64,000 nt of DNA from Desmodesmus armatus (taxonomy: Eukaryota > Chlorophyta > Chlorophyceae > Sphaeropleales > Scenedesmaceae): the NCBI GenBank assembly GCA_007449985.2, contig VIIQ02000209.1, positions 119,800-183,799 on the forward strand, written 5' to 3'. Positions 14,781-22,404 of this stretch are shown piece after piece (the stretch's first letter is position 1; each line of letters starts with the position of its first letter). The position numbers and the translations under genes are program-made. Under the pieces are notes generated by a model that saw nothing but the letters and a program-made list of their open reading frames with translations, did not search any database and had not been told where the DNA came from.

Positions 14781-14788
14781 CGTCTGAC

Positions 14789-14801
14789 CAGTGTTGCCGA
14801 T
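14789..14801 (+). repeat. Left terminal inverted repeat
   Basis: CAGTGTTGCCGAT, preceded by target duplication CGTCTGAC at 14781-14788. Confidence 0.9.
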
Positions 14802-14914
14802 TGAGGCGATTTGGCGGATTGCAGGCGATATTTGGCCCTCAAAATAGGCCTAAATCGCCCAGCGGGGGTTTTATTCGGTACTATGAGGCAAGCGTTCTGG
14901 GAGGGGGCCTATGA

Positions 14915-14982
14915 GGCGCCGAAGGCGCCTCGCAATTGGGTGTCGGGAGGCTGACGTAGTGAATTGGGATATGCTAATTGGG
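14915..14982. repeat. Left subterminal hairpin and AATTGGG repeats
   Basis: A GGCGCC-GAA-GGCGCC stem-loop (14915-14929) is followed by three AATTGGG motifs (14934, 14962, 14976). Subterminal repeats of this kind often bind transposase; that role is inferred. Confidence 0.5.
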
Positions 14983-15473
14983 TCATGTCTGTCTGCATAA
15001 ACTGTGATTTTGTAAGTTATGTTAATTGACCGAAGCGAATTTGATGCTTGCGTGGAAGCAGCCACGGTCCTGTGGGTGCGCGCTAAAAACTGCTTATGCA
15101 ACACCGCAGCGAACACATGGATATTGGGCACTTTTCCTTCTAGCAAATTCAGGTCCAGTATATAGTGATGGTAGCGCATGCGCTCTAATGGCCCTAGCAC
15201 GGCCACAGCACAATCGCATGCAACCAAAACGCTCCAACAGTGGTGACAGTGAGCTGCAATGCAACTGTAATGGGACTTCAAATGAGTAATCAGCCCTGCA
15301 CATGCGGAAAAGCTGCATGGACAGCAAAGATGGACAGCACCAACACTACACAACACCACTGGCTGCATGAAGAACAGCAACTGTCAAACCTTGTAACAAA
15401 CTTCACACAAACAGCAACCCACACAGCCCAGACTGCGCAACACAGGACTCGCAGAGCGACTGCTGGACTCCAC

Positions 15474-18400
15474 TCAAGAACGCTTCGGCTTGTAGTGCCT
15501 ATTCTTTGGGCAGGCCACCGCCTTTGTGTAATCTGCAGGCTGCACCTGTTTGTCACCCCACTGCTTCTTGCACACAGAGCACTTGCAGAAAGGGCACCCG
15601 TCTTGCTCTGGTGCCTTCTGGTGGTCACCATCCATGACGACAGCTGCAGGGTGCACCTTTGCCGCAGCCACGGTGAGCTTGGCCCCATCGCCGGACCGCT
15701 TCAGCTGTGTGCAAGGAACACACACCTTCGAGCCGCCCTTGCCCCCCTTCCCCTTCCCGTAGCCTGCTGCTGTGGCCTTGCTGCTCTTCTTGCTGCTGTG
15801 ACCACCAGGTGGAGGCTGGCGGAGTGCTGCAAAGGCCCCCAACCCTCCGCTGGGCAGTCTGCTGCTACCAGTGCCACCACCTGCTGCTGCTGCCGCTGCT
15901 GCTGCCGACATGCTGCCTGCACCATCCCCGCCCCCCGCTGCTGCCACACCCGCTGCTACTGCTGCCTGCCTGTTGGCCCTGCCATCACCGGCTGTAGCTG
16001 TAGCTGCTAGCGCCGACGATGCTGCTGCCTTGCTGGCACTGCGGCTGCCAGCCTTTGCTGCTGATGTGCCGACAGTAGCAGCACCAGCAGCGGCAGCAGC
16101 AGCAGGGGGGACATGTCAAGTGTTGCTGCGCCAATCACATCCCTGTTGGCCCCGTCCTCTGCTGCTGCTGCTGCATTGTCACCAGCCGGCAGTTCCCTCC
16201 TCACCGCATTGGCAAGTGCCTGCAGGCCTGGCGGCAAATCCTGGAAGCTGCCTGCATGCTGCACGCACTCCCGGAGGATTGTGCCCAGCACCTCCTCCAG
16301 GTCCAACTGCTGCTGCTGTGGGTCTGAGGCTGCCTCGACTGCGGCCTGCACACCCGCTGCGTGTGCCTGTGACACGGTGTGCACCAGGTGCTTGTTGTAC
16401 GCCTTCAGGTGTGAGGGGTGCTTGAAGGTCAGGTTGCGGCCGCCGTTGTGGGTGAGGTTTGCTACCACAGCCTCGTTGAAGGCACGGGCGGCAGCCACCT
16501 GCAGGGCAAAGGACGGCCATACATGTTCAGAACAGTAGTATGATCTCAGACATGGGGGCTCCACCACAGCAGTGCATGGTTGCTTGGCCTTGCAGAAAGT
16601 CACATATGCGGGGTCAAGGGGGGGGGTTCCTGTATTCCGGTTCCGGAAGAAAGGGGAGGGTCAGGTGGAAGGGGGGGGGGGGCGAGGGGAGGGGGAAGGG
16701 GGCAGGGCCGGGGGAGGGGGGAGGGAGGGAGGGAGGGAGGGAGGAGGGAGGGAGGGAGGGAGGGAGGGAGGGAGAGAGAGAGGGAGGGAGGTGAGAGGAG
16801 GGAGGGGGCAGGCGGGTAGTGGGAAAGAGGGGAGAGAGGGAAAGGCGGGGCATGGGGGGGGCGGGGGGGGGGGGGGGATACAACGGGCAGGGGGGGGGGG
16901 CTGGGGGGGCGGGCGTGATAGGGTTTGGTGCGGACACTTGCACCATAATAAGTATAATGCCACAACAGTCACAACACAGACACAGTACGTGTGTCCAGGC
17001 TCTGCAAACTGGGCAACACAGCCTTCCTGCCCTCCGGCATCACCACTCACCCAGTCAACTTGCGCATGCCCGCTCCTTTGCTGCTGCTCCTGCACCACCA
17101 CAGTGAACATCTCCGCATCATCTGATGTCTCCACTGGCCCCAGATAGTCTGGTACACCAGCTCCCTGCCCTGCTGCACACGCTGTTCCACCCAGTCAGGC
17201 ACCAGCTGCGTGTGATCACCCTTAGTGTGGTGCTGTGGGTGTGCATGGCTGTGGGGCTGCGCGTGGCCTTTGCGTGTGTGCGCACCCTTGTGGGCCCCTG
17301 CATGCCCCCCCCTTGCTGATGCTGCTGCGGGGGCGGCAGCTGCCGCTGCTGCTGCGCCAGCTTTTGAGTGCCCAGCAGCACCGCTGCGCTGCTTCTTGGT
17401 CGGGGGGCTCAGTGTCAGCACCCTCACCATCTGTCTGCAGCCTGATTGTGGCAGCTACACCCAGTGATGCTGTGCGGCGCTGACTGTGGGGTGCGGATGG
17501 CTGCTGCCCACTCTGCTGCGCTTCCTCATCTTCGTCAGCAGAGTCTGCATCTGTCACTTTCGGCAGTTCTGCGTGGCTGCGCTTTCTGCCAGGGTGTTTC
17601 GCAGTGCGAGCACCCTCTGGGCCTGCTGCTGCTGCTGCTGCTGCTGCTGCAGCAGACTGTGCCTGCCATGCCTCCTCCTCCTGCTGCTGCTGCTGCAGCA
17701 GCAGACTCCGTCTGTGTCCTGTCTCCTGCTGCTGCTGTTGGGGCATGTGGAGGTGCTGCGTACGCAGCTGCTGCCTGGAACTCTGCTTCCAGGTCCCACT
17801 CCCGGTCAGCACATGCGTGTGGGTCTGGACCCGCCTCTGCTTCTGCATCCGCCGCTGCTGCTGCTTTGTCTGCCTCTGCCTTGGCAGCTTTGGTCCGATC
17901 AGGGTTGACCATGGCCTGCACAGGACAACACGTTGGCAGACAGCAGGGCAGGGAAATCATGACTTGTGAGGTGGTCGAGTAATAGACTGCTACTACACTA
18001 AGTGTATATCGCTGTGGCGATGGCGGTCCCACAACAGATCAGACCACCACCAACATGCCGGCAAGTGCTGTGCGACTCAGTGTGCCAACAGATGGGCACG
18101 CAGCTTCTGTTCATGTACATACAGTACAGCGGGATGTACAGAAGAAATCACAACAAGCAGCCAAGCATGTCACTGGAGCATTGCAGTTGCAACTCACCTC
18201 CAGGCCATCAATGTCCATGCATGGTATGCTGGGCGCTGCGCCAATGCTGCGGCACACATCATTGATCTTGAACCCTAGCGGCATGTCACGGAAGTCACGG
18301 TAGAGACGTGCTGCATCTGCCAGTGGCCCTCCTGCCTTCTTGTCTGCTGCCAGTGCCAGCTCCAGCTTGATGTTGTAGTTGTAGCCGGCGACACGGTCTG

Positions 18401-21400
18401 ACATCACACCTGAACGCACACGCGATGTGCAAGCAGATTGCCAGACAGTGTAAGACCATGCGACGATCACGGGTTGTGTGCAAGCCGCCTGCAACCACCA
18501 ACAAACTGAAGGCAGCGGCTGAAACACACTGCCAGACTAGCAGCCAGTCTGACGATGACAGGTACTCACCGTCTGCCATCTCCTCTGTCATCTTGCCGGT
18601 TGTGGCCAAGGCATGCTCAGCCACCCTGTTGGCCACCTCCACCTTTGGGCTGCCCCGCATGGCCCGCACAACTCCAAGCCATCACTGTTGGGGCCTAGGT
18701 GGTAGTACATCTCCCTGCCGGAGGGGTCTGGAGTCACAGCAAACAGGACACCAACAACAGAGAGACAGTGTGTGTAAGCAACTGAGACCAACCAACAAAT
18801 CATATGTGTCTGTTAATACCTGGCTCGGGGTTGACACCTTACAACCAGCCATTGCAGCTCAGCTTTGTGTGCTCTGGTGTGTGTGCATGCGTGCGTGCAT
18901 GTATGCATGCGTATGTACGCACATGGATGCATGTGAGGATAGGGACACCCCGGCACACAGTACAACTACAGGCTGGCAGTTGCAAAAACCAATAGCTACT
19001 CCTGTTTTATGAGTGGTCTTACCGCTCAGGAAGCCGTCGCGCGTCAGGTCCTTCTGGTGCCCAAAGACCCTCTGGAACTTGTCCAGGCCCTCTGGCCGCC
19101 GGACACCAGCAACCTGCCGTTGGCATCTGTGAAGATGGCTGCTGTGTAGACGTACTTGTTGAGCCAGCCGTCAAGGCGAGCCACCTGCTCATCTGCAGGC
19201 AGGTACACCCGTTCCACGGTGTTCTGCCAGGTCTTCAGAGGCAGTTTCTTCACCAGCGCATCCACACTCCAGTTGGCGTACACCTTGTTCTTCTCCTTGT
19301 AGACACGCACAGCATCGGCCAGCTGCTTTACGTTGAACTTGAAGAACACCATGGCCAGGTCCTTGATGGCGGCAGCTGCAGTAACAAAGTACAGCAGCGA
19401 ATATCAGGAGGCAGATACGCAGCATGTGGCGCGAGTGTCTTAGTGAAGCAAAAACAAGAATCTGGCACTGGTTACCACAGTTTTCAGGCCTTTCGAAAAC
19501 GACATGCAGGTGCCTCGATTCTGCCAATCAAATACAAGTTGAGAACAGACCAAGTGAATACAGAGATTGAGCTGGGGCCACTTACGGTACTGCTCATGTA
19601 GCTTGTCCAGCAGTGGGCCGATCCTGCTGAAGATGATGTGGCCCACATCCATCTTGACGACAGCACCTGTAAAGATGCCGCCCAGCACGCCTGCCATGGA
19701 GCGTGGGTCATCCACGTACACCAGCTCAATCGGCTGCAGCAGGCAATGAAAGGTACAGAGCCAGCACAACAACATTGCATGAATGTTGGGTTCATGTCAC
19801 CCAACCTGCTACACTTTTTCCAAGCCTCTTGCCACACCTTCACTGTGACAGCCCTTCAACACCCACTGCCACAGTCTTGCACCCAGTTTCCGCAATGTTG
19901 CTGGCTGTGCAACCCCCCTCCATGCTCTCCCCCTTGCTCACAATAACCCCTCCCCAGCCCCTCCCCCCTCACAACACACACGCACACACGCATGCGCACC
20001 TGCCTTTCCCCACTGCAAGTGAACTCAACACAGCCTCAGCAACATGTGCACTCAACAGCAACCCACCTCTCCTCTATCATCCTCCTTTGCGTACAGCGCC
20101 AGCAGCTGCGTCCGCACCTCATCAAGGCTGGTGCTGTACACCTTCCAGTGCCCCACGATGTTGCCGCTGGCACCACAAGCCATGAGCATGCCCTTGAAGG
20201 ACCCCTGCATGCGCTTGGCCACCTCCATCACATGATCCAGGGCCAGCACTCCCTCGGTGCGCTCACTGGCCTGCAGCAGGCTCTGCAGCTGCCACCGGCC
20301 CATGCCTACTGCTTTGTAAGCAGCCGTGGCAAGGGCGGGGTCAAGCCTCTGGTAATCAAACCCTGCTGGATCCCATGGCCCCTTCCAAGGCCCCGGCGCT
20401 GGCAAGCTGCTGATGTCACTGCCACCGTCGTCACGACTGCTGCTGTCACCCCTGCTTGCGTCCTTGTCTGCCGCTGCCGCTGCCACTGCCGCTGCCGGAC
20501 GTTTGGGAAAGAAGCTTGCCAGGAGGGACTGCTTTGGGCGGGGTGCAGTTGCAGCAGCAGTTTCAACTGCTGCTGCCGGAGCTGCTGCTCCAACTGTTTT
20601 TGACAGCTCATGTACCAGCGTCCCTTGGCGCCGCTGCTTCCTGTAAAGCTGAGTCTGGTACAGAAACTCCAGCTGGGCAGCCCTGCACAGGAGACAGTAA
20701 GCACACCACCGTTGGTGCTATTGGCAGTGTGAACGTGACTGAACGGAACTGCCAGCTGCGCGCCTGCTGAGCTCCCTAGCTGGTCAACCCCGCCAATCTG
20801 CTGCTGCAGACACCCAAACAGTGAATCTGACAGTGCTGCAGCAACCTAGGTACAGGGGCTGGCAAGCCTTGGTGGAAGGTGGAAGAATGGAAGATGGAAG
20901 CACAGCCCACTCACCTCTTGACAACAGCCTCGTTGCGGTGTGCTGCAAACTCAGAGATGGCCTTCCCAGTGCTGCGGGCACGTGCAATCCTGTCTGCCAG
21001 CTCCCAAGTGACACCGCTCTTGTGGCTGGTGTAGGCCCAAGGGACATGCTCCAAGACCACAGCCTCGAAGTTGAGGGCCATGAAGTCAGGGTGCATGGTG
21101 CTGAAGACATAGTCTGCAGTTCACAAACAGGAAGGGGGGGGGTCATGCATGTTTTACTAACAGATGCAATTCACTGTCATCATGTCATGAATGTTATAAA
21201 ACTGACTCATATGCTGCACCTGATTGCCCGATCATGGTAGGCATCTCTGCAGGTGTTGCGCCGTGCATCATGCTGGTGAGCAGTGAGACGTTCATGCAGC
21301 CAATACATACCCTGGGCTGAGTGCTGTGGGCAACCCTTGCAGCGGGCCTTCATGTGCAGCACACGGAAGTCCTCCTCACACCCTAGCACACGGTGTGTCC

Positions 21401-21925
21401 CTTGGGCCAGGCCGGCCCCCTCCAAACCCTCGCGCAGGCACTTGGGGCATTTGGGGGCTCCCGAAAGCAGATGATTGAACATGACCTGCAGCAAACAGCT
21501 AGCCTGTGTTAGCAGTTGGTAAGTCCATATGTGACGGCAAGCCATCAACAGCCTGGATACAGCCTGGCACCATGACGCAACACATTCACTCACACATGAG
21601 GTGCTTTCAGTGGCCGTCCCAGCAACTGTGATAAATCGTGATGCTGTTGATCATACAGTAGACTCCCACACATTACGCGCAGGCCTTGGCTCCTGTTCAA
21701 CCCCGTGCAAAGTGGGTGACACACTGATCTGCTGCTCTTCCCTGTGGACAGCTGAGGCCAGTAAACTCACCAGAGGGTGGTGCACGTAAAACCGCTGCCC
21801 ATAGGTATAGATGTCATCAAGACTGGCATCTGAAATGAAGGCGGGGTGTCCGCAGAGACGTGCCATCCATCCACCCTGCTGCTGCAGCTCATCCCACCAC
21901 TTGGACTTGCTGGCCAGCCTGCTGA
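15474..21925 (-). CDS. Transposase-like gene with zinc-binding N-terminus (DUF6729-like), frameshifted
   Basis: Minus-strand multi-exon gene inside the 7.6-kb transposon; the first exon was not found. In order: KWWDELQQQGGWMARLCGHP and DDIYTYGQRFYVHHPL (about 21925-21778); a Cys exon with CPKC, CEED and CKGC (about 21485-21310); TSHKSGVTWELADRIARARS (about 21115-20913); GNIVGHWKVYSTSLDEVRTQ (about 20690-20070); IELVYVDDPRSM and VVKMDVGHIIF (about 19740-19588); a helical exon (about 19376-19020); PKVEVANRVAEHALATTGKM (about 18740-18586); YNYNIKLELALAADKK (about 18410-18198); then low-complexity parts and a Cys-rich end CPFCKCSVCKKQWG, stop at 15474. YVDDP and KMDVGH could be two acidic residues of a DDE/RNase-H-like core (inference). 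Resemblance to the DUF6729 Cys module is from memory of the family. One-base losses near 19095, 18665 and 17140 break the frame, so this copy may be dead or the sequence may contain errors. Confidence 0.68.
16625..16925. repeat. G-rich (GGGA)n tract in transposon intron
   Basis: About 300 bases of G runs with GGGAGGGAGGGA repeats (16720-16790) and a final poly-G. It could form G-quadruplexes on the plus strand. On the gene sense strand it is a C-rich intron between exons. Confidence 0.8.
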
Positions 21926-22275
21926 GCTGTACTGAACTTTAACTTCAGGAAGCTTGGATTGCAGCACCTCTCTGCATTTCGTCTCAGCCAGGGCAGGCCT
22001 TGGTTGCTGATGAGACCTGCTGTTGGCGATTGGGGCCTGTGGCTGCCTTCATCGCGTCAAAGCGGGGTCACGAATAATCTTTTAACTGACTGCGTTTCGT
22101 ATGGAGTTGCTGACGAGTCCCATGCCTGACTGGACGAGCACTGTCAGCAGATCAGCAGCGAGTCCGTTGTGGTTGTGTGTGGATACGTTGGCGTTGGTAA
22201 GCAAAGCAGAACGTAACCGAATAAACCAAACGTTCGGTGCAGGCAGCTGGCACTGGGCGCCACTGTGCTGCAGGT

Positions 22276-22309
22276 GAATTCGGTCACTGAATTCGGTCCG
22301 AATTCGGTC
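22276..22309. repeat. Right subterminal triple GAATTCGGTC
   Basis: GAATTCGGTC occurs at 22276, 22289 and 22300, just inside the right end. This looks like a set of protein-binding sites for the transposase (inference). Confidence 0.65.
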
Positions 22310-22383
22310 CCTCATAGTACCCCTTCAACTGCCACTGAACCGCCTAGACTTCGCCTTGGTGAGGCGATTTCCCACTCCAACCT

Positions 22384-22396
22384 ATCGGCAACACTG
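22384..22396 (-). repeat. Right terminal inverted repeat
   Basis: ATCGGCAACACTG, the exact reverse complement of the left end, followed by target duplication CGTCTGAC at 22397-22404. Confidence 0.9.
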
Positions 22397-22404
22397 CGTC
22401 TGAC

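Follow-up and report, generated by a model that had tools for sequence, protein, structure and literature searches.

The gene-bearing element in the window (the whole 64,000-nucleotide stretch of Desmodesmus armatus DNA analysed here) is best explained as a Dada-like DDE-type transposon, frame-broken in its gene, that lies nested in an unrelated MITE. A probability of about 0.8 was assigned to this explanation. According to it, the first insertion would have been that of a roughly 144-bp MITE bounded by 13-bp CAGTGTTGCCGAT repeats, which made an 8-bp duplication, and a 7.5-kb DNA transposon, referred to as lineage A, would then have inserted into the middle of this MITE. In the preliminary description, the outer ends and the encoded protein had been taken for one complete transposon in which hAT-type ends were tied to a DUF6729-like transposase. 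This link was easy to make because the ends and the duplication are perfect. It fails because the copies with the same ends are MITEs without the gene, and because the insert occurs elsewhere without CAGTG ends and its sister elements have ends resembling the inner pair of the insert. The nesting result thus keeps a false link between hAT ends and a DUF6729-like enzyme out of annotation.

Outer ends and the interrupted MITE

The outer CAGTGTTGCCGAT ends were 13-bp terminal inverted repeats located at 14789-14801 (forward strand) and 22384-22396 (reverse strand) without a single mismatch. They were flanked by an exact 8-bp duplication, CGTCTGAC, the left and right copies of which occupied 14781-14788 and 22397-22404. 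Both features had been described previously and were confirmed as perfect. The distance of 7,608 bases spanned by the ends and the presence of one large gene were also reproduced, but the gene was found to sit in a separate insert.

The exact 13-mer was found 35 times in the 115.8-Mb genome versus 2 times for the reversed pattern used as a control. Thirty of these 35 matches were cut out, which corresponded to 22 distinct places, and 18 of the 22, the window included, belonged to a MITE family of the D. armatus genome delimited by these ends. The places left out of the set were C610, C803, C618, C720:50160 and C755; a search with a 151-bp MITE identified C610 and C803 as full-length MITEs. An 8-bp duplication was present in 13 of the 17 family copies outside the window (no more than 2 mismatches in the duplication and up to 4 in the second end were permitted), and 12 of these 13 copies measured 140-153 bp. 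Therefore, the suggestion that the outer ends derive from a mobile family making 8-bp duplications was borne out by other copies with the same ends and duplications. However, the genome search for further copies with the 13-bp ends, as proposed in the preliminary description, yielded MITEs from which the gene was absent.

With the 151-bp MITE L021 as the query, 21 genome matches were obtained. Fifteen of them lay outside the window, covered at least 149 of the 151 positions and were uninterrupted, running through the insertion point with 71-100% identity to L021. The others comprised four partial matches and two that were the separated halves in the window: the left half at 14789-14859 corresponded to L021 positions 81-151 (94% identity), and the right half at 22322-22396 corresponded to positions 1-73 (97% identity). 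The right half begins with CC, and these two bases can be assigned either to the MITE or to the insert. When rejoined, the two halves gave an element of 144 bp, which is inside the natural range of the family. A longer copy of 676 bp, L025, had an interior of its own, and two further relatives of this interior were found on C612 and C720.

The outer 144-bp element was similar to non-autonomous hAT elements (MITEs) in its CAG-type terminal repeats and 8-bp duplications. Its assignment to hAT is drawn from the ends, as no gene for a hAT transposase was detected together with them, and duplications of about 8 bp are also described for the P superfamily (PMC3706591) and for Zisupton (PMC12730594). 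The autonomous partner of the MITE was not found: the sole genome match to PF05699, on C97, had no paired ends; in the surrounding 17.9 kb, a single end-like word occurred, unpaired and with 2 mismatches, and nothing there resembled the MITE.

The inserted element and its sister lineages

The MITE in the window was interrupted by 7,462 bp at 14860-22321, bearing the transposase-like gene on the reverse strand. The edges of this insert are uncertain by about 5-10 bp; on one side, approximately 5 unexplained bases separated it from the MITE, whereas the other side had no such bases. The inner pair GGTACTATGAGG / CCTCATAGTACC was located at 14877-14888 and 22310-22321, that is, the motif GGTACTATGAGG occurred on the forward strand at the 3' side of the gene and on the reverse strand at its 5' side; the latter motif was also found at C294 and was missing from C39. 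A subterminal palindrome, GAGGCGCC-GAA-GGCGCCTC, occupied 14913-14931, and three subterminal direct repeats of GAATTCGGTC were present at 22276-22285, 22289-22298 and 22300-22309. The left-end word TTCGGTACTATGRGG gave 4 matches versus 11 for the reversed control with one mismatch allowed.

Lineage A was represented by three copies, which is a low number. The copy on C39 contained the regions corresponding to 14862-16734 and 21940-22300 of the window at 98-99% identity in different flanks and without the MITE. It was internally deleted, and its right end was short by approximately 21 bp. The end region common to this copy and the window begins near 14865 with GGGGTTTTATTC. On C294, only the right 0.78 kb was present, which stopped where the window insert stops, and the MITE was again absent.

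Two sister lineages, B (on C515 and C349) and C (on C141 and C211), likewise encoded this protein. Their ends were related to the inner ends of the insert, with which they could be aligned by eye, and were unlike CAGTG; palindromes comparable to that of the insert were also seen by eye close to them. The claim that a DUF6729-like protein resides in an element with repeated ends is retained for the inner ends and not for the outer CAG-type ends. The copies on C39, C349 and C211 were internally deleted and retained end regions at both sides, whereas the right end was missing from the C515 copy, which begins at a contig end. In lineage C, two derivatives of 160 bp united both end regions. The gene was found on C205 (the contig of the window), C294, C515, C349, C141 and C211, and the exact CAGTGTTGCCGAT 13-mer accompanied it on C205 only; the 13-mer was missing from C39, C294, C349, C515, C141, C211, C759 and C321, and it sat tens of kilobases away on C720 and C555.

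No clean target duplication was found for the insert. Words of 8 bp were common to the flanks at C349 and C720, and a 6-mer, seen by eye, was common to those at C39. In a control with hand-cut flanks and 28 cross pairs, from which within-lineage pairs were left out, matches of at least 6 bp occurred in 4 of the 28 pairs, and the candidates were not clearly above this level. The longest shared word returned for C39 by the flank script fell within the element.

The transposase-like gene, its relation to DUF6729 and its possible kinship to Dada

The gene at 15474-21918 (reverse strand) was intron-rich and multi-exon, with splice sites placed by eye. Its conserved exons were located at about 21771-21918, 21311-21485, 20915-21113, 20067-20682, 19586-19733, 19023-19375, 18570-18727 and 18198-18409, all on the reverse strand. 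The 3' part that followed them was of low complexity and terminated in a Cys cluster. The reading frame shifted near 19,095 and near 18,680, each time inside a different conserved exon, and a further frame break was found in the low-complexity C-terminal half. The window copy of the gene is not intact and is probably inactive.

The protein contained an N-terminal CCCC module (21339-21449, with CPKC from codon 21447-21449 and CKGC from codon 21339-21341), a first catalytic-type Asp in LALDHV (20235-20237), a second one in YVDDP (19710-19712), a DxxH motif in KMDVGH (19638-19649), a catalytic-type Glu in RGSPKVE (18637-18639) and a C-terminal Cys cluster, CPFCKCSVCKK, starting at 15594-15596, all encoded on the reverse strand. 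In the numbering of P0002, residues C65, C68, C102, C105, D256, D321, D342xxH345 and E515 were invariant in the window protein and in the homologs P0001 and P0002. P0003, which stops before E515, retained all of the invariant residues that it covers. The encoded protein is very probably a transposase, and lineages A, B and C would encode a multi-exon DDE-type enzyme that combines a CCCC zinc module and a Cys cluster with the motifs D, D, DxxH and E. Its DDE chemistry and the cut-and-paste movement of the elements are inferred. The end regions of the element, namely, the inner GGTACTATGRGG motifs, the subterminal repeats and the palindromes, would be the expected binding sites of the transposase, which would then excise the element and join it to the target, as is thought for Dada transposases.

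No Pfam match to a BED finger or a C-terminal dimerisation domain was obtained for four parts of the window protein (519 residues) and three homologs. The inner protein was accordingly rejected as a hAT transposase, and the earlier remark that it lacks the usual hAT BED finger and dimerisation motif holds for the parts scanned. The proteins scanned also gave no match to KDZ, except for a weak match between P0003 and the KDZ-associated CxC5 cluster (E 0.15); Zisupton and Kyakuja have been reported in relatives of Chlamydomonas (PMC8226300). With a 414-residue part as the query, no match to solved structures was found at E values up to 1. An AlphaFold model of P0002 built from three sequences had a mean pLDDT of 39.6, which is too poor for judging an RNase H fold. 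No relative was found among phage records, and none was confirmed by scans of viral contigs, each made with only two short peptide patterns; a viral or phage origin was rejected on these grounds. In each of the three protein searches, only the approximately 8,000 candidates with the most shared words were scored, and low-complexity words may mask relatives.

The protein had been called DUF6729-like. A part of it matched DUF6729 (PF20499) with 13.4 bits (E 0.057) and P0003 with 20.6 bits (E 0.00038), both under the Pfam cut-off of 27 bits; P0001 and P0002 gave no match, and a genome search with the family at E values up to 1 returned none at the loci of lineages A, B and C. The same genome contains a genuine member of the family, a frame on C594 with 43.4 bits, above the cut-off. 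When a profile of the core was compared by hhalign with the DUF6729 elements on C594 and C334, the alignment had a probability of 93.1, an E value of 3.2e-7 and a score of 62 over 269 columns, whereas the best score in 50 column shuffles was 31.7. All four motifs (D, D, DxxH and E) lined up. When the window row was omitted, the E value was 1.5e-6 and the first D fell outside the aligned part. The homology region lies downstream of the DUF6729 domain in the genuine member, and in both kinds of protein a Cys module precedes the core. CFHCSKPGHWARDC, which is of the CCHC type, was present in the DUF6729 element at C594; the copies of the C594 and C334 elements were still matching at the limits of the fetched sequence. 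Thus, the resemblance to DUF6729 stands in the alignment of the core, although the Pfam cut-off was missed, and by sequence comparison the lineage A-C protein is remotely related to DUF6729 proteins. For DUF6729, a domain of unknown function, this provides evidence for a place among Dada-type DDE transposases. In the literature available for full-text search, no paper with the name 'DUF6729' was found, so that the transposase link is at least not made explicit in it under this name.

The available description of Dada includes a DDE triad with DxxH, an N-terminal CCCC finger, a C-terminal CCHC zinc finger, a multi-exon gene, a length of 4.7-11 kb and a target-site duplication of 6-7 bp (PMC3706591). 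The triad with DxxH between the second D and E appears to be matched by the lineage A-C protein, and the CCCC module was matched by C65, C68, C102 and C105 of P0002, invariant in both alignments (C389, C394, C429 and C432 in Dada-U6_DR; PMC3706591). The D-D and D-E spacings were 65 and 194 in P0002 and 64 and 208 in P0001, compared with 68 and 176 in Dada-U6_DR (PMC3706591). In contrast to the CCHC finger of Dada, the window lineage has the Cys cluster CPFCKCSVCKK. The candidate target duplications included 8-bp as well as 6-bp words, themselves not clearly above the control. Dada copies with clearly definable termini are described as occupying multicopy small RNA genes (PMC3706591), whereas no such target was found in the stretches fetched: Rfam at gathering scores gave no match in 11 sources (126,009 bases), and no tRNA gene was detected in 10 loci and the window. 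Kinship of the insert to Dada is suggested by its likeness to the published descriptions and motifs.

Alternative explanations

A single autonomous transposon with CAGTGTTGCCGAT ends that are recognised by its DUF6729-like transposase, and with short copies that arose from it by internal deletion, would explain why perfect ends and a perfect duplication surround the gene and why about 71 and 75 bp from its two sides recur in the MITEs. However, at C39 and C294 the insert starts or stops a few bases from the end of the MITE similarity without CAGTG, lineages B and C bear different ends, fifteen MITE copies are uninterrupted through the insertion point and the longer L025 has its own interior. 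Contradicted by gene-less MITEs and MITE-less inserts, this explanation was rejected as practically untenable. It is improbable, to a somewhat lesser degree, that the elements became nested and the composite was afterwards mobilised as a whole, through the action in trans of the transposase responsible for moving the MITEs. The MITE ends and the duplication did remain perfect despite the 7.5-kb insert between them, but a young MITE accounts for the same facts, the gene and the exact 13-mer co-occur only on the contig of the window, and neither an autonomous partner nor paired ends at the C97 PF05699 locus were identified. Few copies, retained introns and indistinct target duplications might also be expected of an immobile insert, such as a duplicated host gene or a segmental duplication within the MITE. 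This is very improbable, considering that end motifs are common to three diverged lineages, that C39, C349 and C211 are internally deleted yet keep both end regions, that the 160-bp derivatives are built from two lineage C ends and that the protein carries a transposase-like motif set.

Within the preferred explanation of a Dada-like element nested in a MITE, the chances are about even that the insert belongs to the Dada superfamily proper (Kojima and Jurka 2013) and is not just Dada-like. The DDE and DxxH motifs, the CCCC finger, the multi-exon gene, the length and the comparable spacings agree with this, and members are already listed from the green alga Chlorella variabilis, the fungus Laccaria and the brown alga Ectocarpus (PMC3706591); the fetched stretches without tRNA or Rfam matches, the absence of a clear 6-7-bp duplication and the divergent C-terminal Cys cluster argue against it. 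A more tentative possibility, considered rather doubtful, is that the lineages represent a new sister group of Dada in green algae at the level of a superfamily: a DUF6729/Dada-type branch that does not target small RNA genes and has its own paired ends with palindromes, MITE-size derivatives and 8-bp rather than 6-7-bp duplications. Should small RNA genes prove not to be the target of the lineage, this would help to show how Dada gained its unusual target choice. One fish Dada copy has likewise been reported within a non-autonomous hAT element (PMC8869645).

The MITE divided by the insert

The interval 14781..22404 had been read in the preliminary description as one transposon with hAT-like ends and a DUF6729-like transposase. 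Its 13-bp ends, exact 8-bp duplication and 7,608-base span were all confirmed. When the 115.8-Mb genome was searched (match counts here and below are lower bounds), the outer-end 13-mer was found to be enriched, with at least 35 exact matches versus at least 2 for a reversed-pattern control. Thirty of these 35 were cut out and read as 22 places, eight pairs being the two ends of one element. The MITE family sequence was present at 18 places, including the window, and absent from the other four (L014, L016, L027 and L029) despite the 13-mer. In 13 of the 17 family copies read outside the window, a second end (at most 4 mismatches) was followed by an 8-bp duplication (at most 2 mismatches). No second end within these limits was found for L002, L008, L015 and L030. 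The duplication was exact in seven of the 13 paired copies, one of which lay in a poly-C run and was uninformative. Twelve paired copies were 140-153 bp long; these are MITEs, too small to hold a transposase, and their putative superfamily assignment is based on the ends alone. The remaining copy (L025, C536:335339-336014) measured 676 bp and likewise had CAGTG ends, with an exact 8-bp duplication. Its interior had two relatives, at C612:163126-163631 and C720:49738-50172; the latter adjoins a CAGTG end and may be a lead to an autonomous partner of the MITE.

When a 151-bp MITE copy (L021) was used as the query, at least 21 matches were obtained. Fifteen of them, outside the window, ran uninterrupted over 149 or more of the 151 positions, four were partial, and two were the halves of the window MITE (14789-14859 and 22322-22396), which lie 7,462 bp apart. 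When put together without the ambiguous bases CC at 22322-22323, the halves (71 + 73 bp) made a 144-bp MITE that carried both ends and the duplication and fell inside the length range of the 12 other aligned copies. In this alignment, the copies differed in a unit of roughly ten bases located where the insert had entered.

The insert and its sister lineages

The insert (lineage A, 14860-22321) occurs elsewhere in the genome without the MITE. Its left inner end, from 14862 on, was found again on contig C39 (100% over 249 bases), where window positions 14862-16734 were fused to 21940-22300 by internal deletion; this copy had different flanks and a right end approximately 21 bp short. The right inner end was found again on C294 (100% over 295 bases) with the same stop point and other flanks, and only about 0.78 kb of the insert was retained there. 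In two of three long alignments of insert copies, most differences were gaps (8 gaps, no mismatches; 10 gaps, one mismatch); simple repeats or the assembly may account for these. The C39 deletion junction lies in a long G-rich GGGA-type simple repeat within the insert (16660-16900).

When the genome was searched with the protein, at least 24 exon matches were obtained, on C205 (the contig of the window), C294, C515, C349, C141 and C211. C515 and C349 constituted lineage B, and C141 and C211 lineage C; one copy of each pair had an internal deletion, and C515 began at the contig end, without a right end. The edges of both lineage B copies (L064 on C349, L063 on C515) adjoin long C-rich CCACC-type simple repeats. 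Lineages A and B had TTCGGTACTATGRGG in common at the 3' side of the gene. All four exact genomic matches to it were inside lineage A or B elements, but 11 were obtained for the reversed control at a tolerance of one mismatch (both lower bounds), so that TTCGGTACTATGRGG alone is weak evidence. The ends of lineage C were more distant, yet TATGGGGC was retained beside palindromes. Inspection by eye suggests a 3'-side consensus near CGGGTTTAATT; the position of the edge carries an uncertainty of 5-10 bp. Lone lineage C ends were found on C759, C555 (80% identity) and C321 (48 bases, 88%), and C720 carried two 160-bp lineage C derivatives built from both end regions. These derivatives (L073, 1815-1974 and 2156-2315) were oppositely oriented and 181 bp apart, and their flanks may have been exchanged through inversion. 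The genome search found no exact CAGTG 13-mer on C39, C294, C349, C515, C141, C211, C759 or C321; on C720 and C555 it was tens of kilobases away from the lineage elements.

No target duplication of the insert was visible in the window. Left and right flanks were compared in seven copies, with 28 cross-lineage pairs as the control. Two copies had an 8-mer common to both flanks, TCCGGGGT at C349 and GTCACAGG at the reverse C720 copy, but the control also reached 8 (one word of 8, one of 7 and two of 6). GTCACAGG may belong to the element end, since it also comes after lineage C at C141. At C39, the 6-mer AGCCCG was seen by eye, the longest common word given by the script falling within the element; the other four copies had 4-5 bases common to both flanks.

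The transposase-like protein and its relatives

The gene in the window ran from about 21,918 down to 15,474. Because its frame shifted near 19,095 and near 18,680, each time inside a different conserved exon, and changed several more times in the low-complexity part, this copy is probably inactive, unless the frame changes are assembly errors. Searches identified three homologs, namely P0001 (Tetradesmus obliquus, 1,234 aa), P0002 (EukProt, 711 aa) and P0003 (JGI, 553 aa). C65, C68, C102, C105, D256, D321, D342xxH345 and E515 (P0002 numbering) were invariant in the window protein, P0001 and P0002; P0003 kept these residues wherever covered and stopped before E515. The lineage C protein on C141 carried the motifs SLDHV, TVDN, DxGH and RGSSKNE.

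The published description of Dada (Kojima and Jurka, PMC3706591) gives elements of 4.7-11 kb with introns, 6-7-bp duplications and small RNA genes as targets, encoding a DDE transposase with DxxH and with N-terminal CCCC and C-terminal CCHC fingers; members are listed from Chlorella, Laccaria and Ectocarpus. The architecture of the present elements matches this description, and the catalytic spacings of 65 and 194 (P0002) and 64 and 208 (P0001) compare with 68 and 176 in Dada-U6_DR. However, no small RNA target was found: Rfam gave no match to any of 11 sources, and scans of the window and 10 loci turned up no tRNA. Because the agreement covers the architecture but not the target, and Dada was compared by description, the insert is called Dada-like and is not filed as a Dada member. 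The motifs, ends and deletion derivatives suggest that such an element would cut and paste itself through the DDE chemistry of its own predicted transposase.

The DUF6729-like label held only at the level of remote homology. Part of the window protein scored 13.4 bits and P0003 20.6 bits, both below the 27-bit cut-off of the family, and P0001 and P0002 had no DUF6729 match. Two loci in the same genome, C594 and C334, exceeded this cut-off; they were repeats, 94-99.6% alike in pieces, and one open frame of C594 scored 43.4 bits. When the alignment of the window protein with P0001 and P0002 was compared as a profile with the C594 and C334 frames, a match over 269 columns was obtained (Prob 93.1, E 3.2e-7, score 62, versus at most 31.7 in 50 column shuffles), in which the first D, the second D, DxxH and RGSxKxE were aligned. 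Without the window row, E was 1.5e-6 and the first D was beyond the aligned part. Therefore, the label was right as a statement of remote homology. The two loci (L077, C594:8000-15000; L078, C334:30500-37500) hold two similar versions of one element, which encodes a genuine DUF6729 protein; L077 shows CFHCSKPGHWARDC, a zinc-knuckle, and both have a second open frame upstream, hydrophobic-looking by eye.
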